A stretch of DNA of 33,158 nucleotides from a virus, in IMG/VR virus record IMGVR_UViG_3300035198_000100, positions 1 to 33,158 of that record; one strand, 5' to 3'. Positions 13,390 through 33,158 of this stretch are shown here, piece after piece. How positions within the stretch are numbered: the stretch's first letter is position 1; each line of letters starts with the position of its first letter. The notes beneath the pieces were generated by a model. That model did not search any database and was not told where the DNA came from. It worked only from the letters and a program-made list of their open reading frames with translations. The position numbers were made by a program, and so were the translations under genes.

Positions 13390-13818
13390 ATGTCTTTTGA
13401 TTTAAAAATTGAAAATAATGATTTAATTATAAATCCTGATGGCTCTATACAAACTGTGAGAGATAATGAAAAATTAGAACAGGATATTATTAAAGCGCTA
13501 TTAACCACATTGGGGTCAAATAATTTTCATAAGTGGTATGGAAATTCTTTGGGCGCTTCTGTTATTGGGCAATCTATGAATGTTAATACTATAGCTACAG
13601 TCGCTGAAAGCGATATACAAAATACACTAAGCACTATAATGGCTTTGCAAAATATGCAGGCACGAACTCAATATGTGGCGGCTGGAGAAATTATAGCAGC
13701 AATAAGAAATATTTCTGTATTAAGAGATAATACAGATCCAAGACAATTTGAAATCACTGTTTCAGTTTTAACAAGGAAACTTAATATAGTGGAAACGACT
13801 TTTTCGTTGAGGATTTAA
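13390..13818 (+). CDS. Baseplate wedge protein, gp25/GpW family
   Basis: 142 aa with a strong Shine-Dalgarno site (GGAGG). It opens with beta residues (DLKIENNDLIINPDGSIQTV), then helix EKLEQDIIKALLTTLGSN, then WYGNSLGASVIG. This order (short beta start, the LxQDIxKxLLTxxG helix, a Y/WG-S-LG segment) and the length match the GpW/gp25 family, the sheath-nucleating wedge protein of contractile tails (T4 gp25, Mu gp46 types). The C-terminal half alternates strands ending in VETTFSLRI. It lies two bases before the baseplate J gene, the standard neighbour in myoviruses and contractile injection systems. Strong family match by pattern and context. Confidence 0.82.
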   Translation: MSFDLKIENNDLIINPDGSIQTVRDNEKLEQDIIKALLTTLGSNNFHKWYGNSLGASVIGQSMNVNTIATVAESDIQNTLSTIMALQNMQARTQYVAAGEIIAAIRNISVLRDNTDPRQFEITVSVLTRKLNIVETTFSLRI

Positions 13819-13820
13819 AA

Positions 13821-16800
13821 ATGACTACTTTTAAAAGTTTTAATAATATTGTACTTGATATGATAAATTATTTGCAACTAACACAGCCAAGTTTAGATGT
13901 TAAGCCTGGCGCCGTTTCAAGAGATTTATTTATTGATGCCCAGGCACAGCAAATATCTAATATTTATACAGAATTACAAAAAATATCAGCTTTACAATCT
14001 ATTTCAAATGTTAGTGGGCAAGATTTAGTTAATTACGCTTCTAATTTTGGAATTACAAAACAAACTGGAACTAAAGCAATAGGAAAGGCCGTTTTAACTT
14101 TAAAAACTGTAGATACAGATATAATTATTTCACAAAATTCTGTTATTAGAAATAGAAATGGTTTTCCTTTTTTAACAGTATCTACCACAACGATCACCAC
14201 TTCACAGGCAAATGCTTTAAGGGCGACAGCGACTAGATTTAGACAAGAATTAAATTCTGTTGGCATTACAGATGAATTTGCCATTGAAGTATCAGTACAG
14301 GCACAAAGTAATGGGAGTGCTGGAAATATTTCAGCATATTCTTTAGTTAGTCAGTCTGTGTCTGGCATAAGTAATGTAACTAATATATCACCTTTTACTG
14401 GTGGAACTGACGCAGAAAGTGATTCGTCATTTAGAACTAGAATTTTATCTACTTTTGCTGGCACAAATGTTGGAACTGCTGTCGGTTATAGAAGCACTAT
14501 ATTAAATCTTGCTGATGCCATAGATGCATTGGTTATTGAACCAGGAGACCCTTTAATGATCAGAGATGGGACTGATGTATCTACAGATTCTAATGGAAAT
14601 TTAATTGTAACACAGCCCGGCACTGGTGGTAAAATTGATATTTATGTAATGGGTGAAAATCCTCAGTCTGGCATAGATAGTTTTGTTTACTATGATCAAA
14701 GTGGGACTAATAATCCAGCAGATGCTGATAATTATTATATAATGGGACAAAGTAGCACTACGGCCAGTACAACTTTAACTTTAAATTCCCGTCGCGTTTC
14801 TACTTTAGCCGGAACAGCCTCTATCCCAAATCAACCCATATCAAATATTATTTCAGTAAGTGGGAGTTCATCTGGCCCTAATTTTATAGAGCAATATTTA
14901 GACACAGATGGAACTCTTAAAGGAAATTATAAACTTATAAAAGATACTGGTTCTGCCAGTGGAAGTTCATTTGGATTAGATAGATTTGCTTGGACATCGG
15001 ATAGAATTAATTTATTAGATGAGGCGAATACAAAAGGCGTATTTAATAGCATAGATTCTTTAGGATTTACAGATGTGTCGTTAATATCTGATATTATACA
15101 AGAAGTTCAGGTAATTAATGAAAATTCAACAGTTTCTGGGAGTAGTAGAAGTTATATTACTGTTAAACATTCTCCAATTAAAACAGTAAGTCGGGTTTTT
15201 AATACTACTACTGGTGAAAGATATACTATCGTGGATCAAAACCCTGATGGAACAGGAACTATAAATGAAACTGGTAGAATACAAATTAGCGGCAGAACAT
15301 TGCCAACAGTTAGTGACATTTTACAAGTAGATTATATTTGGTTATTTAATTATGATCAATATATTGATTTTGACAATTTTAATCCTAAAGATGATTTGGA
15401 CAGCGCTCAAGATTCTGTAGAATGGGGATATTCAAATTATATAAGAGATGAAGTCTCTGTGGCAATATTAGATGCATATAATAATTTAACAGTTACTACA
15501 ATATATCCAATAAGCAGAGTTTTATCTGTAAATACTTATGTATCTGAGACCGCTACCGTTTCTTCAACCAAAACTATAATAGTAAGTCAAACTATTAATA
15601 ATATTTATAATATTACAGATACAACTTTATCTGGTGGGCCAGAAATATATAATACAAAAACAGATGATGGAGATTTTTCAAATTTATTAATAATTTTACC
15701 AACAGACACGCTGGCACAGGCTGGAGATACAGTAATTGTAACATATAATTTAGATAATATTGCTACTTCAGATGATTATGACAGCGGGTTGTTTGTAAAT
15801 AATATGATTACAATACTTCCATACACAGCGGTGTCTTCTGGCACCACAGTAAAAGTAAATTATGTAGCTAATTTATCAAATATATTACCTTCTATTCAAG
15901 TGGCAACATTGCCTGTTTCTGGAAATACATTTAATTCATTTATAGAAGCGGATGGCTATCAACCAGTATTAAATACTTTTTCTGGAACTACTGTTGTGGC
16001 GAATCAAAGAAGGGCCCCTTCTAATTTAGAAGTGTCATTAACAAACATTCCAGTGTCTGGGGGTTCTATAAGAATTTCTGGAAATACATTTAACAAAATA
16101 GAGGGCGTTGTTACAATAACTACGGCAGATATAATAGATTTTAGTACATTAATAAAAACAAAAGAAGGGATTTCTAGAAATGCTACTTTGTCATCTAATA
16201 TTTCTATAGTTCGTGTTGCTCTTGTGCAAAAAGTTACTTTAAATGTAAGTGCGGAAGTGTCAAATATTATATATATTTATGATTTAACAAATTATTCTTT
16301 ATATACTAATATTTGGGATAAAGCGAATGCATTAGAAAATACATCATTATCGCAAACACAAATGGCATTATCTCAAACAAGTTATAATACAGAATCGGCT
16401 CTTACTACTGGAACAAAATTGCAAGTTATATTTTATTATGTAAAAATAAATGATTATGAAGATTTATATTTTTCTCGTAGTGGAAGATTAATTACTAACA
16501 AAAAATTTGGCTATGTGTCATCAATTAATAGACTGTCTGGATTGCAAGATTCTGGTGGAACTATTTCGGGAAACATACAAATTGATAATTTTAATCAGCC
16601 GAAACAAAATGAAACGTATTTAACAGATTACGAATATACGGCGCCAAAAGAAAATGAAAGAATAACAATAAATTATGAATATAATAAATTAATTACTGAT
16701 GCTACAGAGGCAATCGAAGATAAAAGACCAATTACCGCTGATGTCTTGGTTAAAGCCGCTGTTAAAATAGAATTAGATGTAACTGCTAATATTGTTATTA

Positions 16801-17063
16801 GTAGTGATTTTCAAAATCAATCTAGTACAGTCATCCAAGATGTTGCTGACAACATTACGTCTACCTTAACTGCTACGGCTTTAGGAACAATTTTAGATGC
16901 ATCTGACATTATAAATAATATTTATAATGTTGCGGGAGTGGATAGAGTTAATATAATAAGATTTAATAAACACAATATTTCTGGAACCAAATTAAGTCTC
17001 TCCGCTCAAAAGAATGAATATTTTGCTCCTGGAACCGTATCTGCTGTGGCCGAGGAACGATAA
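13821..17063 (+). CDS. Baseplate J-like wedge protein (gp6/gpJ family), enlarged
   Basis: 1080 aa, Shine-Dalgarno GAGGA. Residues 20-60 (LTQPSLDVKPGAVSRDLFID and a helix) are the baseplate J N-terminal signature. SGQDLVNYASNFGI (65-78), SVQAQSNGSAGNI (158-170) and FTGGTDAESDSSFRTRI (192-208) complete the core. The C-terminus has VAGVDRVNIIRF, also usual for the family. T4 gp6 is about 660 aa and gpJ about 300, so a large beta-rich part (about 280-950) has been inserted; it contains repeated strand-turn patterns and resembles adhesin-type domains. Gp6/gpJ proteins dimerise to form the baseplate ring and respond to the host signal that triggers sheath contraction. The family call is firm; the insert is unassigned. 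Confidence 0.85.
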   Translation: MTTFKSFNNIVLDMINYLQLTQPSLDVKPGAVSRDLFIDAQAQQISNIYTELQKISALQSISNVSGQDLVNYASNFGITKQTGTKAIGKAVLTLKTVDTDIIISQNSVIRNRNGFPFLTVSTTTITTSQANALRATATRFRQELNSVGITDEFAIEVSVQAQSNGSAGNISAYSLVSQSVSGISNVTNISPFTGGTDAESDSSFRTRILSTFAGTNVGTAVGYRSTILNLADAIDALVIEPGDPLMIRDGTDVSTDSNGNLIVTQPGTGGKIDIYVMGENPQSGIDSFVYYDQSGTNNPADADNYYIMGQSSTTASTTLTLNSRRVSTLAGTASIPNQPISNIISVSGSSSGPNFIEQYLDTDGTLKGNYKLIKDTGSASGSSFGLDRFAWTSDRINLLDEANTKGVFNSIDSLGFTDVSLISDIIQEVQVINENSTVSGSSRSYITVKHSPIKTVSRVFNTTTGERYTIVDQNPDGTGTINETGRIQISGRTLPTVSDILQVDYIWLFNYDQYIDFDNFNPKDDLDSAQDSVEWGYSNYIRDEVSVAILDAYNNLTVTTIYPISRVLSVNTYVSETATVSSTKTIIVSQTINNIYNITDTTLSGGPEIYNTKTDDGDFSNLLIILPTDTLAQAGDTVIVTYNLDNIATSDDYDSGLFVNNMITILPYTAVSSGTTVKVNYVANLSNILPSIQVATLPVSGNTFNSFIEADGYQPVLNTFSGTTVVANQRRAPSNLEVSLTNIPVSGGSIRISGNTFNKIEGVVTITTADIIDFSTLIKTKEGISRNATLSSNISIVRVALVQKVTLNVSAEVSNIIYIYDLTNYSLYTNIWDKANALENTSLSQTQMALSQTSYNTESALTTGTKLQVIFYYVKINDYEDLYFSRSGRLITNKKFGYVSSINRLSGLQDSGGTISGNIQIDNFNQPKQNETYLTDYEYTAPKENERITINYEYNKLITDATEAIEDKRPITADVLVKAAVKIELDVTANIVISSDFQNQSSTVIQDVADNITSTLTATALGTILDASDIINNIYNVAGVDRVNIIRFNKHNISGTKLSLSAQKNEYFAPGTVSAVAEER
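17052..17056 (+). promoter_or_regulatory. Shine-Dalgarno site that fixes the start of the 2277-aa gene
   Basis: GAGGA lies eight bases before ATG 17065, inside the end of the baseplate J gene. An in-frame ATG 51 bases earlier (17014) has no such site and lies deep in the J gene, so 17065 is preferred. Confidence 0.7.
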
Positions 17064-17064
17064 A

Positions 17065-20000
17065 ATGGCGAGTTTTATTAGAATACAAAGATTAAGTGTA
17101 AAAAATAGTTATACTATAGAAGTATCTTTTACAACTAGTCTTGATAGCGATATTGGCATAGAAAATGTTACTGTTGAAAGCGCTCAAGGCGGCGGGTCTG
17201 GTTTGACTGTAACTTCTGTGTCTGTGTCTCAAAATATTTTAACTATTGCCGTTCGACCTATGGTCGATGGTAATTATTATAAATTAATTTTAGAATCTAC
17301 AACTAATTATACCATTAAAGGAATACATGGAGAAAGATTTTTAGAAGACGGCAAATCTAATATCGTATTTTTTGTTGGAAGTATTGAAGATAATGAAATA
17401 CGTGATACTATTTTATCTAACATATCTGATATATATAATAAAAATTCCGGTTCTTTAATTTTTGACAGTATTGCCAATATAGCAAAATCTATAGAAAAGG
17501 TTTCTCATTCAACAGGAGAAGTGTCAAGTGCTAATTATATTTCTATTGATATAACTGATGAGGCAATTACAAGAGGGTCTGGTCCATTTGATAGATTTGA
17601 GCACGAAGGAGTTTTTGAATTATTAAGAGTTGGGTCTACCATTACTGGGTCTGAAACAGAATCATCTATAAATTTTGATGAGTTTCCAACTGCTCCAGTT
17701 AGTTTACAACAAATATATGTATCAGAAGAGTTAGTTTCTAATTCTGTAAGTGGCAACAACAGTTTTTCCGGATTAACTATAACTTTATCAAAAGGTCCAA
17801 TAATTAAAATTACTTCTATAACACTAACGAGAGATGCTGTAATATATATATATGACATAGAACAATATCGATATGGTTTGAAAGAAAGCAAGTATGATCC
17901 TGATAATTCATATCAATATTTAACTTTAATTGATAACCAGTTAAAGTTAAATGAATCTGCGATTGGGGCATCATTTCCATTTCCTCAAGGAAGTGATACT
18001 TTTACTATTTCCTATTATTATAAAAAAACTGGTAGAGTAATTGGATCTGATTCTATATCTATTACATCTGATTTAAATATATATAGAGAAAGTTCTCCAG
18101 CAGTATCTACTTCATTTTTTCTAAATCATGCTCCAATAGTTAATAATATGGGAGAAATACCAACTCGCAATGGAATTACTTGGCTTGATCCTGCGCAGAA
18201 TTATGATGAAAATGAAAATCATCCTGCTTTTATTACTGAAATACAATATAATCAATTAAATTTGCCCAGCTTGCCTGGACAATATAGTGTTAACTATTCT
18301 ACTGGGCAAGTGTTTGTTTTTGGAGTTGACGGAACAGGAACTGATGGAACTACCACTGTTCCACCAGTTGCTACCTATATTTATCAACAAACATATCAAG
18401 AAGGATTAGATTATCGTTTTTATTCTGACATTAATGAAGTCGTTTCACTTCCAAATAGAGATTTACGTGACGAATTAGCAACAATATGGTTTAGTTATGA
18501 AGATACTTTTGCTGATGGAACAGATTTTAATTTTGCATCCCATATAGAAATTCTTAATGAAAGAGTAAATAATAATTTAATTGATACTATAGGAATTAAA
18601 ACAACAAATTATCCAATTAATGAAGTATTTAGAATTTATAATGAAACTACTGGAGAAATATATATTCCTACTCGTGTCAATGGAAATGAAGTATATTTTA
18701 ATGCCACCGTTCCACCAAATGTTGTTAATAAAGAAAGAGAAAGGGTTAAGTTTTTATTAGTAATACAATCACAATTAGTAATTACAGATAGAATTAATAT
18801 TGCTGCCAAATCTTTTATTGCTTTTAAAATAGAATTAGAAGATTCTGAAATAGGATCCTCTACAGAAAATTATATTGGGGTCAGCTTTAATAGTTCTTTA
18901 ATATTCTCTGATACAAATATTTTTATATACGAATATTTCTTTGACCCAGATGACAGCGTAGATGAAAATTTAGTTCGCCTAACTACAGTTGGCGATTACA
19001 TGACTGATTATGAAAATGGTATTGTTTATTTGGCAGCACTTTCTGCGGCAAGTACGGACATAGGAGATGCTACTTATAAAGTTTCAAAAATAGAAACAAG
19101 ATATAATCACATTATTCGCGCCAATGATGTGTATAGAAGTCCTAAAGTTGGGCAAATTTCAAAAACATATGCTGTAAATCAAGTGGCAGATACTACAATT
19201 GATCTAAGCGACTTAGAACAGGCTGGCGAACGAACTGTTAGAGATAATAATGGAGACTATGTTCCTATAGTTGTAGATGGAGGAGAAGTTGCGGTTAGAA
19301 ATGATGTATATTCTATTAATCACATATATCAAGTAACTGATTTACAAATTACCCACTCTCCTATTGATTTTTCAGATGGAGCTGAAATCTCTTCTTCTTC
19401 TGGAGACACTATAATTTTAAGTGATTCTGGGGCACTAATAATTGATGATGGCGATGGAAGTGGCTTACTAGTAAGTGTCGCTGGAACAAGATGTTATGTT
19501 GATGCAGAAAGATTATATGAATTATATAGTGGGAGTTTGGCACAATTAATTTCTGCCATTAATGCGGTAGATATTAATACTGGTGTAAACTATTATACAT
19601 ATGGAAGTGATGGATATGTAGATGCTACAACTAATAGAATTTATTTTCCCACTAGCGCTACCTCTTATGCATCTGGTAAAATGGTTGTTGCTCAATATAG
19701 GGCAGCATTAAGAGATGGCGCCGCCGTATTGGTTGACTATGTGTCTGGAGATATGTTTGTTGATTACTCTTATACTACAGATGAAATTTTAATTAATTAT
19801 GAATATGGAGATAATGTATTGGATTGGAGTATTTCTGATACATTAAATAAAGATGACATTTATTATGTTACTTATAGATATGGCGCATTAAGAACTGCAT
19901 TAAGAGATAATTTTGGTATTTTATCTGGATTAGAAGAATTATCTACAATTCCTGATAATCTTTCTAGAGAAACATATAGAGATGCAGTTTCTGGGGCACT

Positions 20001-23000
20001 ACAAACATTTCCAAAAGGTCCAGTTATTCCTGCAATAAAACAATTAGTTAAATCTTTTACACAGGTAGATCCTAATATTACTGAATCAGTGTTTTTGGAA
20101 TGGATATTAGGAAGAGATAGTTTTAATTTAGAAGAAATGAAATTAAGTGCTATTAATGATGGATATTTACCAACATTTGCGCCTGGAAAGTTTGGCGATG
20201 GATTATTATTAAATATTGAAAGTCAAACGGCAACCATTCCTGCTGTTTCTAACTTGCGATTTGAAGAAGGAACCTGGGAAAGTTTTGTTGTCCCAAATTG
20301 GGCCGGCATAGATAATGACGCTTCAATTACTTTTGATATAGAATTTGATGGGCAAGCAGATGTTGATAAAGTATTTATAGGAAGTAATAATGAACATCCA
20401 ACAGAAATACCTTTTACTTTAAATAGAGAAAGTGTTAGTGTGTTGGGAAGGCCAAGTTATTTACATTCGCATACAGGATATTTTATATGGTTTGATACAA
20501 CTTTAAATTCTTGGGCATTGCGAGTGCGGGCGCCAGCTGTAATAGAAGAAAGAAGTTTTGAAGGAACAATTACTACGACTGGTGAATTTTATAATGTAGC
20601 AAAAGGAGTTACTGCAGATGCCTATGAAGGTATAGATGGATATAGTATAAATGAAATAACAGATACTATTACTTCTACAGATGAAAGAATTAAATTTTCT
20701 TTTATTGTTGATGCTTATGATGTTTTAAATGATTCTTATGATTCTTATGATTCGTATTCTGTTGGCGTAATTGGCGGGTTTGACGGAATAGATTTTACTT
20801 CTGATCATATCCATTACTTTTTTGATACAGGATATGATAAAAATAATTGTAGAATGTCATTATATAAAGATGGCAAAGGATTTATAAGATTTAGAATATA
20901 TGATTCTAATAAAAGAGTTAAAATGCTTAGTGCCAATATTCATACTTGGGAAAGATATAAAGTTCATCATTTAGCTTGTTCGTGGAAAATGAATACTATT
21001 GAAGGAAGAGATGAGTTGCATCTTTTCATAGATGGTGCAGAAGTTCCAAATACATACAGATACAGAGGATATTTTACTCCGCCCAGTGGCACAATTTTTA
21101 TGGACGAAGTAACAGAAACATTGTTAAGCGATGCTGCTTCGGCAACTGTCGGAGCAACAGATTTAGTAACTATTGCCAGTTCTGCTGAAGTAAATTCCGC
21201 TTCTTCTACTTTTGTAAGCGATGGAATTACTGTTGGAAGTATTTTTCAAATATTAGATGATACTATAGATGGAATATATACACAAACAAATATAGTTACT
21301 GTTTTATCTGTATCAGAAACTTCTTTAATATTAGATTATACTTTGCAACTTTCATTACATAATGTAAAATTTACAATTAATTCATTACAGTTACTTACCA
21401 CTAGCGATAATGATGTTGAAACAGTGAGAGTCTTTGTTATAAGTGACGACGTTGAAACAGAATTATATGCACCCGGAACGACATACGAACAATATAATTT
21501 TTCTGCTGATGGATATTTAGAATACGTAAACATTTATGATGGTGTTGGTATTGGAGATACTGTTGTGTTAAGGTCATATGGATTAATGCAAAGTAGATAT
21601 AGACAATATGTTTATATTTGGCCAGACAAACAAACAAATTTATTAAAAACAGTAATGCCTCAACCAATAAGTGTATCTAAAATTAATATTACTAATATCA
21701 TTGTAAAAAGACTTAATATAGAGCCAGGCGTTTTTGCGCTTATAGCCACTTCTTTTGGCGGTCACGTAATTCCTATTTTTGCTACGAATTTAAGTGATTT
21801 TTGTCAGCCCTCTAATGATGTTACTGGCAGATTGCTGTCTGTTACAGTTTCTGGAGACAATATTGACTGGGACGGAGTTAATCAATTAATTATAACTGGT
21901 ACAACAACAGATGGATATGATTTTGAAAACTTTATTTTTACAGAGGCTGGAACGCAAATATCTACAAGATATTTTACATCTATAACAGAAATTTCTACAG
22001 CATTTACTCCTATAGATTCAACAAAAAAAGCTGGGACATTGGAAATTAGAGAAACTCATCCAATTACTTGGCAAGAAAATGATGGAGATTATGCCGAAGT
22101 ACATCTATCTATTCAACAGCAAGCGGGAGTTAGTGGCGTGGCAACAATAAGCACTGGTATTTTCAGTGACGCATATTCAAGGTTTGATGCTGATGATATT
22201 GGAAAATTAATTGTAATTTCTTCTCCATCAAGTATAGCAAGTTCTTATATTATAACAGATGTAAATTTTGACCCAAGTGGTGCTGTAAAAGATTCTGACA
22301 CCATTACATTAAATACTACTTGGTCTGATGGCTATACAGACATTGTATGGAAAATGCTTTCAATATCATATGGAGACAGCGGGTTTGCTAATGGTTTAAT
22401 TACTTTAGAAATATTTGGCTCTGGAGGGCTCCCATTTTTACTTAGAAGCTGTTGGTATGAAATAGATTTTCCTACTTATTTAACTATTCCTTGGACCAAT
22501 GTTCCAGAAAAACTTTATATTGGTTCCAATATGTATGCAGAACATCAGGCTAATGCAACCATAGATGAAATGAGAATATTAGATGAAATTTCTTTAGACA
22601 CCGGAATGGGGTCTCCGGCCCCAAGCTCTGGAAGATCTATTACCACTGATGCTTTAGTAGTAAAAGAATTTACAACCACAACTCAAACACTGGCCTTATT
22701 TCATTTCAATAGTGATGTCATCAATAATGCTAATTTTTACAGCAGTTTTTCGCCATCTTATCATCAGAGTGAAAATAGTGTAAATTCTTTATTCAAACAA
22801 AGTGCCATATTTAATAAAAAAGAACCATTGCAGGTTGAAAATAAAGCCATTTTTGGTAACGATTCTGGTACCATTGAATTTTGGATTAGTCCTATTTTAG
22901 ATACATATAATGATCCTACAGATAGATATTATATTGATTTATCAACAGAATTACAAGCAGAAGTAGAAGCGCTGTCTGCTTTAACAATAGTATTAACTAA

Positions 23001-23898
23001 TAGAGCAAGATCGATTGATTCTGTTATGATTAGTGGCAGTAATAATAATTATTTTATTGGGGGGACTTTAGCGAATGATGGTTTAACCATTACTTTAACA
23101 CAGCCTCTTCCAACAAATGTTAGGAATGTCGTTGTTACCTATATACCTATTACAAGCCAGGGTGATAGATTTAGTGTGTACAAAAATGAAGATGGATTTC
23201 TTGTATTATTTGTAATGGCTTCAGATATTGAATATCAAATTAGGGCTCCAATTTATTGGAAAAAAAATAGTTGGCATAGAGTATTTGTTGGCTGGGATTT
23301 AAATAATACAGATAATCAAGATAGATTAATTCTTATGGCGGATGGAACAGAAACAGGAATTATAAGATACGGCACGGGTTTAAAATATGGAGAAGGTCAT
23401 GTATATGGGTCTCCTACTATTTGGGGCTCTGCCACTGTTGGTACAACATCTGCGCGCAACATATTGGCAGATATAAATTTATTAGATTTATTTAATATTA
23501 TTAATATTGGTGCCGATTTTACAGGACAGTATCCTGCTATGGCCAGATTAGATAATTTAAGAATATCTGACAGCTTAAGAACTATAAGTTATTTAGGTGG
23601 AAGTGGTCCTGGAAAATTAATTGGAAAGGATACATTATATACTAGCAATCTAACAACTGCTCAGCCGGTAATAAGTGACGCACTAACAAGATTGCTATTA
23701 GACTTTGACACTGATCAATCAGAAGTAGAGTATTTAACTGTAATTAGAAATATGTCTTCTGGTATTTTTGATTTTTTTGTTGAAGTAATCGATTCATTTT
23801 CTTTAATAGATTCAGAATTAGAACATCAATTGGTAACAGATTTAATTAATAGTTTAAAACCAGCTCATACTAGGGCATTCGTAAGTTTTACGAAGTAG
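17065..23898 (+). CDS. Giant baseplate/tail adhesin with LamG-like domains and a gpI-like C-terminus
   Basis: 2277 aa from ATG 17065. The N-terminus is Ig-like beta sandwich. A helical block (about 942-1015; FGILSGLEELSTIPDNLSRE, YRDAVSGALQ, KGPVIPAIKQL) resembles baseplate wedge/tail proteins that hold attached adhesins. LamG/concanavalin-like sandwiches follow: about 1041-1340 (FGDGLLL, HLACSWKMN, LHLFIDGAEVP), an incomplete one ending near 1845 (ATIDEMRILDE), and about 1875-2172 (LALFHFNSD, GTIEFWISP, WHRVFVGWDLN, ARLDNLRISD). The last 15 residues contain SLKPAHTRAFVSF, a pattern of tail protein I (gpI/YmfQ-type) C-termini. It follows gp25 and J genes exactly where gpI normally sits, so it may be a gpI-type wedge protein that has acquired sugar-binding modules. 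A DSY tandem lies at 1223-1231. Architecture is visible; carbohydrate binding is family inference. Confidence 0.72.
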   Translation: MASFIRIQRLSVKNSYTIEVSFTTSLDSDIGIENVTVESAQGGGSGLTVTSVSVSQNILTIAVRPMVDGNYYKLILESTTNYTIKGIHGERFLEDGKSNIVFFVGSIEDNEIRDTILSNISDIYNKNSGSLIFDSIANIAKSIEKVSHSTGEVSSANYISIDITDEAITRGSGPFDRFEHEGVFELLRVGSTITGSETESSINFDEFPTAPVSLQQIYVSEELVSNSVSGNNSFSGLTITLSKGPIIKITSITLTRDAVIYIYDIEQYRYGLKESKYDPDNSYQYLTLIDNQLKLNESAIGASFPFPQGSDTFTISYYYKKTGRVIGSDSISITSDLNIYRESSPAVSTSFFLNHAPIVNNMGEIPTRNGITWLDPAQNYDENENHPAFITEIQYNQLNLPSLPGQYSVNYSTGQVFVFGVDGTGTDGTTTVPPVATYIYQQTYQEGLDYRFYSDINEVVSLPNRDLRDELATIWFSYEDTFADGTDFNFASHIEILNERVNNNLIDTIGIKTTNYPINEVFRIYNETTGEIYIPTRVNGNEVYFNATVPPNVVNKERERVKFLLVIQSQLVITDRINIAAKSFIAFKIELEDSEIGSSTENYIGVSFNSSLIFSDTNIFIYEYFFDPDDSVDENLVRLTTVGDYMTDYENGIVYLAALSAASTDIGDATYKVSKIETRYNHIIRANDVYRSPKVGQISKTYAVNQVADTTIDLSDLEQAGERTVRDNNGDYVPIVVDGGEVAVRNDVYSINHIYQVTDLQITHSPIDFSDGAEISSSSGDTIILSDSGALIIDDGDGSGLLVSVAGTRCYVDAERLYELYSGSLAQLISAINAVDINTGVNYYTYGSDGYVDATTNRIYFPTSATSYASGKMVVAQYRAALRDGAAVLVDYVSGDMFVDYSYTTDEILINYEYGDNVLDWSISDTLNKDDIYYVTYRYGALRTALRDNFGILSGLEELSTIPDNLSRETYRDAVSGALQTFPKGPVIPAIKQLVKSFTQVDPNITESVFLEWILGRDSFNLEEMKLSAINDGYLPTFAPGKFGDGLLLNIESQTATIPAVSNLRFEEGTWESFVVPNWAGIDNDASITFDIEFDGQADVDKVFIGSNNEHPTEIPFTLNRESVSVLGRPSYLHSHTGYFIWFDTTLNSWALRVRAPAVIEERSFEGTITTTGEFYNVAKGVTADAYEGIDGYSINEITDTITSTDERIKFSFIVDAYDVLNDSYDSYDSYSVGVIGGFDGIDFTSDHIHYFFDTGYDKNNCRMSLYKDGKGFIRFRIYDSNKRVKMLSANIHTWERYKVHHLACSWKMNTIEGRDELHLFIDGAEVPNTYRYRGYFTPPSGTIFMDEVTETLLSDAASATVGATDLVTIASSAEVNSASSTFVSDGITVGSIFQILDDTIDGIYTQTNIVTVLSVSETSLILDYTLQLSLHNVKFTINSLQLLTTSDNDVETVRVFVISDDVETELYAPGTTYEQYNFSADGYLEYVNIYDGVGIGDTVVLRSYGLMQSRYRQYVYIWPDKQTNLLKTVMPQPISVSKINITNIIVKRLNIEPGVFALIATSFGGHVIPIFATNLSDFCQPSNDVTGRLLSVTVSGDNIDWDGVNQLIITGTTTDGYDFENFIFTEAGTQISTRYFTSITEISTAFTPIDSTKKAGTLEIRETHPITWQENDGDYAEVHLSIQQQAGVSGVATISTGIFSDAYSRFDADDIGKLIVISSPSSIASSYIITDVNFDPSGAVKDSDTITLNTTWSDGYTDIVWKMLSISYGDSGFANGLITLEIFGSGGLPFLLRSCWYEIDFPTYLTIPWTNVPEKLYIGSNMYAEHQANATIDEMRILDEISLDTGMGSPAPSSGRSITTDALVVKEFTTTTQTLALFHFNSDVINNANFYSSFSPSYHQSENSVNSLFKQSAIFNKKEPLQVENKAIFGNDSGTIEFWISPILDTYNDPTDRYYIDLSTELQAEVEALSALTIVLTNRARSIDSVMISGSNNNYFIGGTLANDGLTITLTQPLPTNVRNVVVTYIPITSQGDRFSVYKNEDGFLVLFVMASDIEYQIRAPIYWKKNSWHRVFVGWDLNNTDNQDRLILMADGTETGIIRYGTGLKYGEGHVYGSPTIWGSATVGTTSARNILADINLLDLFNIINIGADFTGQYPAMARLDNLRISDSLRTISYLGGSGPGKLIGKDTLYTSNLTTAQPVISDALTRLLLDFDTDQSEVEYLTVIRNMSSGIFDFFVEVIDSFSLIDSELEHQLVTDLINSLKPAHTRAFVSFTK
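20731..20757 (+). repeat. Three tandem copies of a 9-base unit (Asp-Ser-Tyr)
   Basis: GATTCTTAT, GATTCTTAT and GATTCGTAT follow one another in frame, encoding DSYDSYDSY at residues 1223-1231 of the giant adhesin. The third copy differs by one base. The unit is close to the DGY tripeptide common in this region. Confidence 0.9.
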
Positions 23899-23909
23899 GA
23901 GGACACATT

Positions 23910-26801
23910 ATGTCAAGATTATTGCCTGTTAATATTAAACAAAATAATTTTTGGGATGGGCAGCAAATTACTGATCAAAATATGAAAGATGAACAAAATA
24001 GAAATGTCAGCATTGATGCGGCCACTGAAAATAACTTTTTTGCCAGCGGAGTATTAGATGAAACTCCCGCACCATTAATAATTTTTGATTCCAGCTCTTT
24101 AAATGCTGCCCAATCAGCATTGATAGATTCATATTCTTTTGACGGGCAAAGTATTTATATTGGTTCCGGTCTTACAGACGTGTCTGATTCCATTTATGGC
24201 GTAAATCTATCTGTAGAAATAAGTAATGCCAGACTAGATGGTGCCGCCAATATTAAAGTGTTAATAATTGGCGATACATTCGGTGGAGATCTGGTTCATG
24301 ATGATTTGGTTTTTGAAAGAAATGGCACACAAATAACAAGAAATAGATATAAGGAAATTAGAGGAATTTTATTTAATAATTTTGCTGGCAATTTAAGAGG
24401 AAGTTATAAATTTGCTTGTGAAGAAGATGGATATAATTTTGTTGGTGGATGTGTAATTCGTGAAGCCAATGCTTTAGAAATTTCATATGATCCAATTATT
24501 GTTTCTCAAACTTATCAACCGAGTATATTTTTTGAAACTTTTGTTCCAGCCAATTCTTTAATAACTGTATCACAAATGTTACAAAATGCAATTGGCGTTG
24601 ACAAATCTATTTCAGATTTAAATATAGGATTTGCTTCGGTCGCGCAACGAGAAATTAGCCCCAATGATGTCACTACTAAAATTGGGCAAAAATTTCAAAT
24701 GAGTGGCACAAATATACAAAAAATATCTATATTGCTTTCTTCACAGTATAATCCCGCCGCCGCACCTGGCGACGGCTATAACTGGTCTGGGTCAGTCGTG
24801 TTAACATTACACGCCTTACAGACTGAAGTAGACTGTCCAGTAACACCTACTCCAGATGACGCTATTGATTTTGACCCAGATCCAGCAATAGTTGCCCAAC
24901 TTTCATTAGATGAAGTAGATTTATTATATCAAGGTGTTGATTTAACTGATGGATATGTTCATGTAGTAGATTTTGTATTTACAGGATCAAAAATTTCCTC
25001 TCCGACACTATCTAATATTGAAGAAGATAAATATTATATTTTTACTATAAGTCGAGCAGGAGACACAACTATAGGCACTATTTTACTAGAAGAGGCGTCA
25101 GACAGAATTGATAATAGTTATATGTCTATATTTGATGGAACACAATGGATTAATGTAACAGAAAGTGATTTGTGGTTTATTATTTATGGGGATTATATTA
25201 AAATTTCTGATGGTGTGGCCTATGATGATGGGGTTGGAGTGGAAATTCCAAAAATTTATAAAGACACTACAAACACAGAAGTTCCTTTTATACAAGGATA
25301 TGAGCCACTATATACAGTAACGAGAAATGCGAGTAATTATGTTTTATTAGAAGTTTCAAGTGAATATTCTGACGAAGAACAAGATCAAAGAACTGGAAAT
25401 TCTATCGCATCAAGAGTAACTCCGGCTCCTACATTTTCTTTAATTAGTTCTTCTTCGCTGACCACATTATTAACAACAGATCCTGACCCAGTTTTATTGG
25501 CTAAAGTTTTAGATCAAAATCCCAGAGGAAATCCTGCTGAAATTTCAGGAACTTCATGTTTTTTTGGACTAGTACATGATAATATATTGAATATTTTAAG
25601 ACCAAACGCTGATATACTTCAATACAATTTAATAGGATCTATTTTGTCTCCGGCAGCATCAAGCAGTTATCAATATAGAATTATTAAACAAACAAATTAT
25701 AATGATTCTTATGGTGACGCAAATGGAGATGGAATTATTGATTTAACCGATGCGGCACTAGTAACTAGCTGGCTAGATGCATATACACAAACATATGGAG
25801 CGATTTCTGGATTATGGATAGAAGATGGATATGTGCAGGAAAGAATCGCAGATGGATGTATGAATACAATTGGATTTTTGAGAGCGGCAAATTTAAATCA
25901 TACTGCCGGATTAGATGGATATATAACGGCCACGGATGCCCAGGCAATAACTGATTATATAAATGGAGTAATTTTAAGTTTTTCGATTGGGTCTACTTTT
26001 TCAAGAACGGAATTACAAGTAGAAAGTTTATTAAATCCATTAACAACTACGTTTGATATGTATATTGACAGTTATAGCATTTTAAAACCGCCCTTTGAAT
26101 CATGTGTTACTTGGCGCATTGATTATGTGCCGACATGGATTCCAGATTTTATAGAAATTACGGATTTAAGAAGATTATTAACTACAGCATATACATATCC
26201 TATTAATTCTTTGTATCCAGGTGGGCAAAATAATTTATTTGTTCCTGGTGATATTTTAATAGATGGATATTTATTAAATCCTGATGGCACACCTTATTCA
26301 GTAGATTTGGAAATGAATCAAATAATATTGGAAATTCCAGTTACAGACACTTATGGAAACAAAACATTTTTAGATGGATATTCTGGAATAAATATATTTT
26401 CTAATTTTATTGCTGAATCTTCTGATGGAAAAACAGCAACAGGATTCACAGCAATGAAATATTATGATGGTTCTTATGTGCAAATTGAAGATTTTGATAA
26501 TAATAAAGTAAAAATAACCGCTTCGTTACAATCTATTGTTAATCAATATGCAGTTTCGATGGGCGGAACGATTAATGATTATATAGGTATGTATTATGAT
26601 CCTGAAACATCTTTATTAAGTGTATATGTTTCTGATATGTATGATGATGGAAACGGTTCCGCTCCAAGAGCCTATCATAGTAATTTAATGGTGTCTTTAA
26701 ATATGAAAGTTTTAATTACTGTATTTTTGAAAAAAGCTATGTTTAAAAATATATCTATAGAAATAAATGCTGCCCAAATGGGTAATTTATTAGGAATATA
26801 G
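23910..26801 (+). CDS. Baseplate/tail adhesin with a dockerin-like calcium-loop segment
   Basis: 963 aa, strong Shine-Dalgarno site (AGGAGG). The start (residues about 10-40: NNFWDGQQITDQNMKDEQNR) matches the pattern of tail/baseplate proteins that begin with a Y/FxDGQxLT-type element and a following helix. Residues 600-685 look like a type I dockerin: YGDANGDGIIDLTDAAL is a canonical DxNxDGxIxxxD calcium loop followed by a helix (VTSWLDAYT). After about 65 residues a second, imperfect loop (LDGYITATDAQAITDYI) follows. The region after 700 is beta-rich with several DGY tripeptides (IDGYLLN, LDGYSGI). It probably links baseplate to fibres, with the dockerin-like module acting as a calcium-dependent joint. 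The dockerin loop is seen; a cohesin partner is not identified. Confidence 0.68.
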   Translation: MSRLLPVNIKQNNFWDGQQITDQNMKDEQNRNVSIDAATENNFFASGVLDETPAPLIIFDSSSLNAAQSALIDSYSFDGQSIYIGSGLTDVSDSIYGVNLSVEISNARLDGAANIKVLIIGDTFGGDLVHDDLVFERNGTQITRNRYKEIRGILFNNFAGNLRGSYKFACEEDGYNFVGGCVIREANALEISYDPIIVSQTYQPSIFFETFVPANSLITVSQMLQNAIGVDKSISDLNIGFASVAQREISPNDVTTKIGQKFQMSGTNIQKISILLSSQYNPAAAPGDGYNWSGSVVLTLHALQTEVDCPVTPTPDDAIDFDPDPAIVAQLSLDEVDLLYQGVDLTDGYVHVVDFVFTGSKISSPTLSNIEEDKYYIFTISRAGDTTIGTILLEEASDRIDNSYMSIFDGTQWINVTESDLWFIIYGDYIKISDGVAYDDGVGVEIPKIYKDTTNTEVPFIQGYEPLYTVTRNASNYVLLEVSSEYSDEEQDQRTGNSIASRVTPAPTFSLISSSSLTTLLTTDPDPVLLAKVLDQNPRGNPAEISGTSCFFGLVHDNILNILRPNADILQYNLIGSILSPAASSSYQYRIIKQTNYNDSYGDANGDGIIDLTDAALVTSWLDAYTQTYGAISGLWIEDGYVQERIADGCMNTIGFLRAANLNHTAGLDGYITATDAQAITDYINGVILSFSIGSTFSRTELQVESLLNPLTTTFDMYIDSYSILKPPFESCVTWRIDYVPTWIPDFIEITDLRRLLTTAYTYPINSLYPGGQNNLFVPGDILIDGYLLNPDGTPYSVDLEMNQIILEIPVTDTYGNKTFLDGYSGINIFSNFIAESSDGKTATGFTAMKYYDGSYVQIEDFDNNKVKITASLQSIVNQYAVSMGGTINDYIGMYYDPETSLLSVYVSDMYDDGNGSAPRAYHSNLMVSLNMKVLITVFLKKAMFKNISIEINAAQMGNLLGI

Positions 26802-26813
26802 TTGGAGGGTTAA

Positions 26814-28856
26814 ATGCCGATAGTTAATATTATTGTAAATCAAACAGGAAAATCAGCAGGAGTTGCCGGCGAAAGTCGAGATGATCTTTCTATTAATTTA
26901 TTAGTTACTCTAACAAATAATGATAATACTGGCGTAACATCTTGGGAATGGGAAATTATTGCATGGCCACAAACAGCACCAGGGGATGCGGCCCCAGTGC
27001 TTGCGGGCACAACAACTAATACGGCGACTTTTACCCCAACAATTAGAGGAACATATGTTATTCAATTAATTGTTAACGATAGAATTAAGGATAGAATTGG
27101 GGCCGCCATAAAAACACAAACCTCTTCCGTCAGAATCCCAAGCTATTTAGAAGGGCCGGAATTTATTGGTGGGTGGGGATGGGCAGCCAGTCATGCTTTG
27201 GCAACTATGGATTCATTTATCGCTGGCGGTGGGGCCCCAAGTGGGCCAGCTAGTGGTGACTTAACAGATGATTATCCTGGTCCAGTTGTAGCAGGGTTAA
27301 GAGGTAGGGTTATTTCCACTACGGCCCCTACTGACAATCAAATATTGGTTTGGAATGATGGAATAAGTGAATGGCAACCACAAACTCCTTCTACTGGGTC
27401 TTCTACATTTTTAGCACTAACTGATACACCAAGTAGTTATATTGCAAGTAGAATTGTAGCTGTTAATGGGGCTGCAACTGGATTAGAATTTGTTACTACT
27501 GCTCCCCCTGGAGGGTCGGCGAGTGGTGACTTGTCTGGAACATATCCGGGCCCAACCGTAGCCAAATTACAAGGAAATTCTGTCAGTTCAAATGCCCCTT
27601 CTGATGGGCAAGTGTTAGCTTGGTCTTCGGGAGGTAGCAATTGGGTTCCTTCTTCTGTTGTTTCAACCTTTTTAGGATTAACAGATGCTCCATCAACTTA
27701 TGTGGGTCAGGCCGGAATGCTTATTAAAGTAAATGTTGGAGAAACTGCATTAGAATTTTTCAACACTGCTTCAGGAGATTTAAGTGGAACATATCCAAAC
27801 CCATTTGTTTCTGGATTACAGGGAAGAAGTGTTTATGATGGGGCCCCTTCTGATTTAAATGTATTAGCTTGGTCAGTATCAAATCAATATTGGTATCCAT
27901 TAACAAATGCATTTACAAATTTAAGTGACACTCCTTCTGATTATACAGGATATGATGGATGTGTTGTTGCTGTAAATATTGGCGCGACCGCATTAGAATT
28001 TGTCGAGGCCCCTCCTCCCGGCGGTGCCGCAAGCGGAGACCTTGGAGATAATTATCCCAATCCTATAGTTGTTGGACTCTATAATCACCCATTAGATCCA
28101 ACAGTGGTTATAGAAGATGGAAATGTTTTAACATGGAATTCAAGTGATGGATATTGGAAAGTTTCCAGCACTACGGGAGGAGTAAGCGCTTTTATTGACT
28201 TAACTGATGCTCCGATCACATATGCTGATAGTGCTGGGGCAATATTAATAGTTAATGACGGGCCAGATGGCATAGAATTTCTTTCTGGAGCCAATGATGG
28301 CGAATTATTACAGTGGGACGAAAAAGGTGGCGGCGGATGGACAGTTGTTGCCGGACGCATAGACGATTTATCCAATGTACTTATTACGGAACCATCCGAA
28401 GGAGAAGTGCTTACATATGATGACAAGAACGCGGTTTGGTATAATGCTCCTCCATCTGGTAGCGGAACCTTAGATAGATACTTAGTTTTTTCTGATGATA
28501 CTGAATTTACAGAGGCTGATACGCCCTATGCTATTAAAAAAACATTTAGAATTATTAGGGACTCTGGTAAAAAGCCAATGGCTTGGAGATTGGTGTGTTC
28601 TCTGTGGACCGTGGGCGGGACCAGTGCTTCTTGTAAATTAAATATCGTAGGATCTGGCAGCGCTGATTCGGGAGAAGTAACGAGTACAGCAACTACTGAA
28701 GGCAACTATGCTAACTCAATTAAATCAGTTGATGTTACACCTGTTGAAGATAACGAACGAGAAGACACTATTTTAACTGTTACTATACAATTAAAACAAA
28801 CTGGTGGTGGGGTTGCACATATTAAATACACAGACCTATTTGCCATATTTGTTTAA
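26814..28856 (+). CDS. Modular tail fibre protein with four long repeats
   Basis: 680 aa, Shine-Dalgarno GGAGG. Residues about 1-110 resemble a PKD/Ig-like sandwich (VTSWEWEIIAW, TATFTPTIRGTYVIQLIVND). From residue 147, four repeats of 83-90 aa each begin with a SGDL...YPxP.V..L element, then VL.W....W.P, FL.LTDxPS.Y and a strand ending LEFV. A degenerate fifth part (GELLQWDEKG, GEVLTYDDKNAVW) leads to a C-terminal domain from about residue 553 (DRYLVFSDD to DLFAIFV), likely the receptor-binding or trimer-ending head. The GDLSGTYPxPTV repeat is common in phage tail fibres. It sits among other host-facing proteins. Family type is clear; the receptor is unknown. Confidence 0.75.
   Translation: MPIVNIIVNQTGKSAGVAGESRDDLSINLLVTLTNNDNTGVTSWEWEIIAWPQTAPGDAAPVLAGTTTNTATFTPTIRGTYVIQLIVNDRIKDRIGAAIKTQTSSVRIPSYLEGPEFIGGWGWAASHALATMDSFIAGGGAPSGPASGDLTDDYPGPVVAGLRGRVISTTAPTDNQILVWNDGISEWQPQTPSTGSSTFLALTDTPSSYIASRIVAVNGAATGLEFVTTAPPGGSASGDLSGTYPGPTVAKLQGNSVSSNAPSDGQVLAWSSGGSNWVPSSVVSTFLGLTDAPSTYVGQAGMLIKVNVGETALEFFNTASGDLSGTYPNPFVSGLQGRSVYDGAPSDLNVLAWSVSNQYWYPLTNAFTNLSDTPSDYTGYDGCVVAVNIGATALEFVEAPPPGGAASGDLGDNYPNPIVVGLYNHPLDPTVVIEDGNVLTWNSSDGYWKVSSTTGGVSAFIDLTDAPITYADSAGAILIVNDGPDGIEFLSGANDGELLQWDEKGGGGWTVVAGRIDDLSNVLITEPSEGEVLTYDDKNAVWYNAPPSGSGTLDRYLVFSDDTEFTEADTPYAIKKTFRIIRDSGKKPMAWRLVCSLWTVGGTSASCKLNIVGSGSADSGEVTSTATTEGNYANSIKSVDVTPVEDNEREDTILTVTIQLKQTGGGVAHIKYTDLFAIFV
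27252..28300 (+). repeat. Four in-frame repeats of about 260 bases within the tail fibre gene
   Basis: Units begin with a Ser-Gly-Asp-Leu codon block at about 27252, 27522, 27771 and 28032, giving spacings of 270, 249 and 261 bases, all multiples of three. The first two units share the stretch AGTGGTGACTT. Units have diverged at the DNA level while keeping the protein pattern, so duplication is not very recent. Confidence 0.85.
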
Positions 28857-30760: not shown

Positions 30761-33158
30761 ATGAAAATAAGATGGCATACTATGAATGGCACCCTGCATT
30801 CATGGAGCCTTGTATGTCAAGAACTCGAAAGAGAAATGATAAAAGCAGGGCACCAGGTTTTTATTAAATCTACTAATAGCTTACAATATTTTCCTGATGA
30901 CTTAAAACCTAATTTGTTGCCTGGCTATCACGCTCCATTGTTTAAAGGTCCGGCAGACTATTGGACCAGAGATGGGCAATTGGTTGTTGTTGATCCTAAA
31001 AATCCTTTGCCAGAAATACAAGATAATAATTTTCCTTATGATGTAGAAATTGCATATACAATCTTCTTCCAAAGCTGTCGCAGATTCCACCCACTATCAA
31101 GATGCAGGATGATTATTTGGAATTTCGAGACAGATAAACTTCCACCAGGCTGGCAGTATTATCATAAAGCAATAGATTATTATCTTCCAAGTAGCCAATA
31201 TTCTTATGATATTTTTGCTAAAAACGGCGTTCCAAAGAATAAAATGTTGGTTGTTCCTCACGGAGTAAATATGGAAACATTTAATCCGTCCGTTGCCCCT
31301 TTTCCATTGATGACACAAAAGAAAGTAAAATTTCTTCATAATGCCATTCCTCATCATCGCAAGTTACACGAACGGGTAATAAAAGGATATTTTGATGCTT
31401 TTACTGAAGATGATGATGTTTGTCTTGTAATGAAAACAAAATTTAAAGACCCAGATAAAGATAAGCCATTTGAAGTTAATGTGAAAAATTTATTAGAAGA
31501 AATATCTTCAAAATATAAAAATCCACCCGAAATAGAAATTATTAATGATAAATTTATAGACAATATTGGATCTCTTTATACCGCTTGTGATGCTGTGGTA
31601 AGTATGAGTTCTACCGAGGGCTTTTGTTTGATTCCAGATACTTTAATTGATGTTGTTGAGAATAAAAAATCTTCAAAACAAATAAAGGATATTATAATTG
31701 GAGATATGGTTGTTTCTCACACAGGGAAAATTCAAAAAGTAATAAAAACTACTTATAGAGATATTGATGAAGAAATTATAAAAATTAAAAGAATTGGCCA
31801 TACTTTTCCCATTTTTATTACCAAAGAACATCCAGTTTTAATAAAGAATAATAATAAAATATATTGGGAACAGGCTAAAAATCTTAATAAAAATAATAAA
31901 TTAGTAATTCCTAAAATAAAAATAAAGGAAAGTAATATTTCTGATATAGATATATTGGATTATAACAGCTTTAATAATATGATACAAAAAGATAATAAAA
32001 TTGGATTATCAAAAGGATGGGGACACAAAAATAAAGACATTTATATTAAATTATCTAAAGAAACTGGTTATTCTATAGGCACATTAAAGAATAAATTAAA
32101 AGATGTTAATAATGAATATCTTTTAAATTTTGCTCAAAAATTGGGATGGAAAAAGCCAGAACCTATTTTGGTTCCTCAAAAATATGAATTAACAGAAAAA
32201 TTTTGTGAATTTCTTGGATTATATATTGCCGAAGGCTGTATTAGTAGAAATGATACTGTTATAATTTCTTCCAATTCTGAAGAAATTATGGCTCATGAAT
32301 TGGAAAAAGATATAATAAAAAACACATTTGGATTAGAACATAGGTTGAGAACTAAAAAAAATTGCACTACAATAAGTTTTGATAATAAAATTTTAGCTAC
32401 TTTTTTTGGTAATGTATTTGGTAAGACTGCTAAATTTAAAAGAATTCCATCATTTCTACAAAGCCATAAATTTATTAATAGGATTTTAAAGGGCCTTTTT
32501 TATGGCGATGGAACAAAAACAGATGAAACCTATATATTTACTTCTTCTTCATTAGAGTTAATTCAAAATATATTTCGTATATTACTAAGTAATAATATAA
32601 TAAGTTATATAACAAAACACCATTCACAAAAATATGAATGGTATTCAATAGCAATAGGGAGACAATTTAATAAAAAATTTGAAGAATTTATTGACCCCCA
32701 TAAATATATATCAAGTTTAAAAACGAATAAATTTCATAGAGGGCGTGTTGAAGAAAATGATGATTTCTTTTTTATTCCAATACAAAGATTAGAAAAAATA
32801 AAGTATTGCGGAAGAGTACATAATTTAGAAGTAGAAAATGACCACAGTTATACTACAAATGGAATTATCGTTCACAACTGCCTCCCCTTATTGGAGGCAT
32901 TAGCCTGTAAGTCTCTTGTTATAGCTCCACGACATGGTGGGCAATTAGACTTCCTTAATGATAATAATTCTTTATTAGTTGATACTAAAGAGATGAAAGC
33001 TCCGCTTTCCATGCAATATTGGACATATCATCCTGATGCAGTGACTGGAGACCCAGACACGCGACACTTCTCTGAATTATTAAGAAAGGTATATGAAAAC
33101 CCAGAAAAAGAAAGGGCGAGAATAAAAGAAGAGGCAAATAAAACTGCCCAAAAATTTT
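30761..33158 (+). CDS. GT4-family glycosyltransferase precursor interrupted by an intein (3' end beyond window)
   Basis: 799 codons are visible with no stop; the right edge cuts it. Start ATG 30761 has AAGGAG upstream. Residues 1-288 are the N-extein: a GT-B first half, the hinge motif VVPHGVNMETFNP (about 164-176), and the second-half start VKFLHNAIPHHRKLHERVIK. Residues 289-706 are an intein. Residues 707-799 resume with LPLLEALACKSLVIAPRHGG. Joined, the exteins give STEGF-CLPLLEALA, the EX7E motif (E286 and E712) that binds the nucleotide sugar in GT4 enzymes, followed by the usual AxACK/G segment. Spliced, 381 aa are visible. GT4 enzymes transfer sugars from nucleotide donors with retention. 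The acceptor may be a virion protein, host surface glycan or DNA; nothing here decides. Frame checked codon by codon with no internal stop. Confidence 0.88.
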   Translation, partial: MKIRWHTMNGTLHSWSLVCQELEREMIKAGHQVFIKSTNSLQYFPDDLKPNLLPGYHAPLFKGPADYWTRDGQLVVVDPKNPLPEIQDNNFPYDVEIAYTIFFQSCRRFHPLSRCRMIIWNFETDKLPPGWQYYHKAIDYYLPSSQYSYDIFAKNGVPKNKMLVVPHGVNMETFNPSVAPFPLMTQKKVKFLHNAIPHHRKLHERVIKGYFDAFTEDDDVCLVMKTKFKDPDKDKPFEVNVKNLLEEISSKYKNPPEIEIINDKFIDNIGSLYTACDAVVSMSSTEGFCLIPDTLIDVVENKKSSKQIKDIIIGDMVVSHTGKIQKVIKTTYRDIDEEIIKIKRIGHTFPIFITKEHPVLIKNNNKIYWEQAKNLNKNNKLVIPKIKIKESNISDIDILDYNSFNNMIQKDNKIGLSKGWGHKNKDIYIKLSKETGYSIGTLKNKLKDVNNEYLLNFAQKLGWKKPEPILVPQKYELTEKFCEFLGLYIAEGCISRNDTVIISSNSEEIMAHELEKDIIKNTFGLEHRLRTKKNCTTISFDNKILATFFGNVFGKTAKFKRIPSFLQSHKFINRILKGLFYGDGTKTDETYIFTSSSLELIQNIFRILLSNNIISYITKHHSQKYEWYSIAIGRQFNKKFEEFIDPHKYISSLKTNKFHRGRVEENDDFFFIPIQRLEKIKYCGRVHNLEVENDHSYTTNGIIVHNCLPLLEALACKSLVIAPRHGGQLDFLNDNNSLLVDTKEMKAPLSMQYWTYHPDAVTGDPDTRHFSELLRKVYENPEKERARIKEEANKTAQKF
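31625..32878 (+). mobile_element. Class 1 intein with LAGLIDADG homing endonuclease (418 aa)
   Basis: It runs from Cys1 (precursor residue 289) to the final His-Asn (705-706), followed by Cys+1. Block A starts CLIPDTLIDV. Block B is seen as FITKEHPVLI, with the TxxH pair at intein residues 66 and 69. Blocks F and G are VHNLEVENDHSYTTNGIIVH plus Asn. Two LAGLIDADG motifs, FLGLYIAEGC (acidic residue near intein 203) and LKGLFYGDGT (near 295), mark a single-chain two-motif endonuclease. Both catalytic acids and all splice residues are present, so it should be active in splicing and possibly homing. A segment near intein residues 139-176 looks like a helix-turn-helix. Two 60-base lines counted by hand (31861-31980) have about 18% G+C, against 42% and 50% in extein lines 30781 and 32881, which suggests separate origin. 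Confidence 0.93.
32879..32899 (+). repeat. Perfect 7-base inverted repeat starting at the intein C-terminal junction
   Basis: TGCCTCC (32879-32885) and GGAGGCA (32893-32899) are exact reverse complements with a seven-base spacer. The left arm begins exactly at the first base of the C-extein (Cys+1 codon). The segment encodes CLPLLEA of the EX7E motif and is unusually GC-rich for this window. Confidence 0.85.

Follow-up and report, generated by a model that had tools for sequence, protein, structure and literature searches.

A conserved dockerin-type module inside a baseplate protein of uncultured jumbo phages

The tail locus and the dockerin-bearing protein

The window, by which we mean the whole stretch of DNA analysed here, comprises the 33,158 bases of a viral record; the tail genes and the parts of the module described below lie on its plus strand. 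At 13390-13818 it encodes a sheath initiator or gp25-like baseplate wedge protein (PHROG 2669 at 1e-11; PF10934 at 3e-7, just under the cut-off), which is followed at 13821-17063 by a Baseplate_J or gp6-like wedge protein (PF04865, 73.9 bits; phrog_6 at 5.5e-35), hereafter the J-like protein, and at 17014-23898 by an open reading frame for a 2294-aa tail protein of no known family. Directly downstream of the latter, an open reading frame at 23910-26801 encodes the 963-aa protein that carries the dockerin-type module, with orthologues in other viral contigs that align to it over its whole length at 30-63% identity. Next comes a 680-aa fibre-like protein whose N-terminal anchor is a PKD/Ig-like domain at 26814-27230 (PF22352 at 5.5e-4, below the cut-off); further downstream lie a GNAT-like protein (weak matches, below cut-off), a 395-aa protein without any match and a glycosyltransferase gene.

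From the position of the gene, we infer that the 963-aa protein joins the baseplate wedge, comprising the J-like and 2294-aa proteins, to the fibres. An earlier, sequence-only reading of this DNA had placed the module in a baseplate or tail protein, and the same gene order supports this assignment by position, with the sheath initiator, the Baseplate_J protein and the 2294-aa protein before the gene and a fibre gene after it. In two related records, L079 and L080, the upstream proteins (2320 and 2292 aa, respectively) contain a short stretch that matches positions 88-155 of the dockerin-protein profile, within its N-terminal half, which suggests a domain common to neighbouring baseplate proteins.

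The surroundings of the locus hold several further features. The glycosyltransferase gene (30761-33157 in the window) contains an intein with a LAGLIDADG domain (PF14890, 43.2 bits; PF14528, 43.3 bits) beside its glycosyltransferase part. L020, L024 and L062 have proteins that resemble this one in length (753-762 aa) and at their start, compared with about 400 aa in L064 and L065. The 316 kb contig L024 has two consecutive fibre genes with the same PKD-like anchor (10818-12740), and homing-endonuclease genes of the GIY-YIG and LAGLIDADG types stand behind the tail genes in L070 (2666-3370), L019 (11361-12266) and L024 (13901-14800).

A direct sequence search with the 963-aa protein returned no match. 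Five viral contigs were reached through the J-like gene, and all five records encode an orthologue of the protein at 50-55% identity; repeated searches with growing alignments enlarged the set to 26 orthologues, all in other uncultured viral contigs, with contigs of 301, 316, 318 and 340 kb among them. Viral records of this kind may be fragments. The contigs of 301, 316 and 340 kb each contain a single dockerin locus, and in L073 (7971-10792) the gene is split between two frames that overlap, one of 329 aa and one of 617 aa, which may reflect a sequencing error or a broken gene.

Outside these contigs, no detectable relative of the 963-aa protein was found among 50,697 records of deposited phages, in bacterial and archaeal genome contigs, or in those stretches of Bacillus phage G and a 485 kb metagenomic phage that the search covered. 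Bacillus phage G is the nearest deposited relative as judged by the J-like protein (30% over 28% of the length), and the tail-gene stretch of that phage gave no match to the 963-aa protein. NCBIfam returned no match and PHROGs none that was convincing. A literature search found no paper on dockerins in jumbo phages, the mentions of tails or baseplates that it returned being unrelated.

The module and its conservation across the family

The module covers residues 598-690 (25701-25979) and is present in all orthologues that span the region. Its first calcium loop, DANGDGIIDLTD (residues 603-614; 25716-25751), has the complete ligand set D1, N3, D5, D9 and D12. The second lies at residues 660-676 (25887-25937), a stretch that alignments identify as homologous to the canonical, DVNGDG-type second loop of the orthologues, for example RADVNGDGAVNSTD. 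An insertion of five residues, seen only in the window, hits the first half of this loop, which reads RAANLNHTAGLDGYITATD compared with RADVNGDGVVSIAD in the closest orthologue, L039. As the insertion upsets the first ligands of the loop, the second calcium site of the window is probably weak or lost. The two loops start about 57-62 residues apart.

Against a cut-off of 22.9 bits, the Pfam Dockerin_1 model (PF00404) matches the whole 963-aa protein with 25.5 bits (E 1.5e-5) and the segment 25620-26039 with 31.5 bits (E 2.1e-7), the latter in two stretches. Run against all six frames of the raw window, the model finds loop 1 alone at 19.2 bits. Since this last match falls below the cut-off, the single sequence makes a fair but not overwhelming case, and it is the orthologues that settle the question.

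Of the 26 orthologues, 25 were comparable across the module; they include related sequences, so that the counts given here are not counts of independent events. Two loops occur at the same place in every orthologue spanning the region (25/25), down to 30% identity, with aspartate invariant at positions 1 and 12 of both loops. Position 5 is aspartate or asparagine with a single serine exception, position 3 is mostly asparagine, aspartate or threonine, and Gly6 is retained in 22 and 23 of the 25 for the two loops; in loop 2, the hydrophobic positions 8, 16 and 20 are also retained. In classical EF hands loop position 12 is usually glutamate, and aspartate there is dockerin-like; aspartate was found there in 50 of the 50 loops counted. 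Ligands have been lost in loop 1 of L025, L063, L016 and L071, and together with the disrupted loop 2 of the window, these losses mean that not every member would bind calcium strongly at both sites.

Across the family, Dockerin_1 matches 17 of 24 segments at E 1e-3 or better, the best at 1.9e-12. A profile built from the family finds 8x39 at 5e-11 and 4uyp at 9e-9 among solved structures, with top matches that are all dockerins, and the L020 module taken singly matches the Clostridium thermocellum dockerin 4fl4 at E 4.9e-8. The sequence-only reading, which had described a dockerin-type calcium loop followed about 65 residues later by a weaker second one and had proposed a dockerin profile search as a check, therefore holds: both the protein and the segment exceed the Dockerin_1 cut-off, the loops are kept in 25 orthologues, the family profile matches solved dockerins, and the second loop, disrupted in the window, is homologous to a canonical one at nearly the distance described. 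A dockerin-like stretch was also seen in an unannotated human-gut phage record (MT839470.1, 2123-2278; tblastn E 3e-4), which is not known to be a member of this gene family.

Divergence of the module keeps pace with that of the surrounding protein. Among the orthologues spanning the region, none with an empty site, that is, without the dockerin, was found. Mean identity is 46% in the module and 45% in the rest of the protein, and distances between modules track those between the remaining parts (Mantel test, 0 of 5000 permutations; 5 of 5000 within the near group). Restricted to this near group, conservation is somewhat lower in the module (45%) than in the remainder of the protein (54%).

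The AlphaFold2 model of the whole protein, made with nine sequences, is poor overall (mean pLDDT 45, pTM 0.28); the module is among its best parts, with most blocks at pLDDT 66-86. The model places a helix after each loop, at residues 612-629 (25743-25796; local pLDDT about 75-86) and 674-684 (25929-25961; about 76-81), with short helices at residues 640-647 and 653-659, these at low overall confidence. It also predicts flanking beta strands that coincide with conserved sequence, one before the module with a conserved YRI (residues 589-600; 25674-25709) and one after it (residues 696-706; 25995-26027). This arrangement is consistent with a dockerin that has an extra helical linker and is placed between two strands, the insertion between strands being only tentative because the structure model is poor overall. 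Judged by its sequence, the dockerin-type module is genuine, and within this uncultured jumbo-phage lineage it has a fixed place in a single baseplate protein.

Proposed role and competing explanations

With a confidence a little better than even, we take the module to be an integral, calcium-stabilised structural part of the baseplate/fibre-connector protein in this jumbo-phage lineage. A dockerin-type module of two loop-helix repeats with a lengthened linker would have been built into a long baseplate protein, presumably between two beta strands, and would fold only when holding one or two calcium ions; in the window, probably one ion would be held strongly, at loop 1. Once folded, the module could serve as a rigid joint or brace, locked by calcium, which would stabilise the baseplate or render its assembly and triggering dependent on calcium. 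Whatever contacts it makes would probably be to other virion proteins nearby, by way of a surface distinct from the classical cohesin-reading face. We include the calcium step because the ligands are conserved, which makes calcium dependence plausible, and because calcium switching of a phage baseplate has a precedent in lactococcal phage p2 (PMC3499812).

Several of the competing explanations turn on the face of the module that would read a partner. Loop-repeat positions 10, 11, 14 and 18 are highly variable, with column entropies of 2.1-3.0, compared with a median of 1.7 and a 90% quantile of 2.7 for the protein; positions 10 and 11, together with the helix face, are the cohesin-reading positions in cellulosomal dockerins. 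A related numbering of the cohesin-recognition positions is given in PMC5301203. The variable recognition face fits a structural role and is also compatible with a partner that co-varies with it.

One alternative is that the module plugs into a cohesin-like beta-sandwich elsewhere in the virion, either the fibre anchor or the 2294-aa protein, so that the parts are joined in a calcium-dependent manner. In cellulosomes, the complexes with which bacteria degrade cellulose, the dockerin fold serves expressly to plug one protein into another, and a fibre with a PKD/Ig-like anchor stands directly downstream in the window and in most near relatives, its N-terminal domain conserved among them. We nevertheless consider this arrangement unlikely. 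The Pfam cohesin profile, which is positive in Methanosarcina as a control and may miss distant, strongly diverged cohesins, has no match in the window or in 18 related records, the 301-340 kb contigs included, and the recognition face is not conserved. Moreover, the anchor and the module are found apart. No PKD anchor match lies downstream of the dockerin gene in L019, L062, L064, L065, L067, L070, L071, L075 and L076, nine relatives that keep the dockerin and in which mostly glycosyltransferase-like or homing-endonuclease genes follow; conversely, L049-L056 have the anchor and no detected relative of the dockerin protein, these records being fragments for which a distant copy is possible. 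The earlier proposal of a cohesin-like partner by which the module would attach the fibres to the baseplate thus finds no support in these data.

This decoupling in both directions leads us to reject the PKD-like fibre anchor as an obligatory partner. In other phages, no homology to the dockerin protein was detected for the short proteins encoded upstream of PKD fibres. The PKD/Ig-like anchor itself is common to fibres with different bodies in different phages (L049, L050, L051, L053, L055 and L056).

A more far-reaching proposal, which we regard as rather more doubtful, is that a dockerin acquired by jumbo phages pairs with a cohesin-like protein so far unrecognised, either a virion component or one on the host, to form a calcium-dependent lock used in assembling or triggering the baseplate. 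If a dockerin-cohesin lock were real, a dockerin-cohesin system would be at work inside a virus particle; and the partner, should it exist, would form with the dockerin a new pair of proteins, of a type known to bind very strongly.

It is improbable that the module is instead a degenerate remnant, a captured dockerin whose function has been lost and which is merely tolerated. Single loops do show ligand losses and insertions (loop 2 of the window; loop 1 of L025, L063 and L016), and the linker varies widely in length, from 46 to 64 residues and up to 155 in L076, but the first and twelfth aspartates are invariant in both loops across 25 orthologues that diverge down to 30% identity, and each member has at least one good loop. 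In L076 (7971-12023) the orthologue is 1351 aa long, with some 100 extra residues between the dockerin loops.

Less probable again is receptor use, in which the module would attach to host-surface cohesins, or to other surface proteins of the host, and set the host range. Receptor-binding tips are usually swapped and faster-evolving; the module here is internal, occurs in every orthologue spanning the region and has diverged at the pace of the protein core, and no bacterial or archaeal genome contig carries a relative of the 963-aa protein. These points weigh against the strong variability of the recognition positions and against the observation that cohesins on the cell surface are bound by dockerins in cellulosome bacteria and that archaea, too, have dockerins (PMC12484212; PMC9012536), both of which would favour such a use. 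Finally, an ordinary EF-hand calcium module with a mere resemblance to dockerins is very improbable: EF-hand Pfam models do match some members, but these are 4 of the 24 family segments (best 1.7e-5) as against 17 (best 1.9e-12) for Dockerin_1, position 12 is aspartate in all loops of the 25 orthologues, and the best solved-structure matches are all dockerins.

Comparison with known dockerins and calcium systems

Like the cellulosomal type I dockerins (4fl4, 1ohz, 1daq and CelD, 1clc), to which it is homologous in sequence, the module has loops of the DxNxDGxI/VxxxD type, two in the family with some ligand losses and with the second disrupted in the window, and a modelled helix behind each. 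It differs in spacing, with loops 46-64 residues apart in nearly all members (155 in L076) compared with 35 in 4fl4, and in its location in the middle of a protein, inside a baseplate component, unlike clostridial cellulosomal type I dockerins. Furthermore, a cellulosomal type I dockerin has near-identical recognition residues in both repeats, which the phage module lacks; its two repeats share 2-10 of 20 residues, and the recognition positions differ between the repeats and vary among orthologues. With neither the short linker nor matching recognition residues present, an assignment to the functional class of cellulosomal dockerins is not warranted.

The best match of the family profile, at 5e-11 and spanning both loops, is the double-dockerin of the C. 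thermocellum S8 protease (8x39/8x3a, deposited as 'Serine protease'), a module type described in PMC12484212. That protease is a secreted bacterial protein that binds scaffoldin cohesins, unlike the phage protein. The X-dockerin dyads of Ruminococcus flavefaciens, in ScaB and CttA, are likewise dockerins with long insertions that are tied to an adjacent domain (PMC5301203); they are C-terminal and bind the ScaE cohesin, and their likeness to the phage protein is one for which no sequence link has been shown. Calcium also controls the state of the baseplate in lactococcal phage p2 (PMC3499812), a different phage with different proteins and different calcium sites, which are not dockerins.

If the preferred reading of a calcium-locked joint is correct, it would offer a testable reason for calcium-dependent infection by these phages and a non-cellulosomal role for the dockerin fold. 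Dockerins are known as the plugs of bacterial and archaeal protein complexes; in this lineage of uncultured jumbo phages, a baseplate protein has one as a permanent component.
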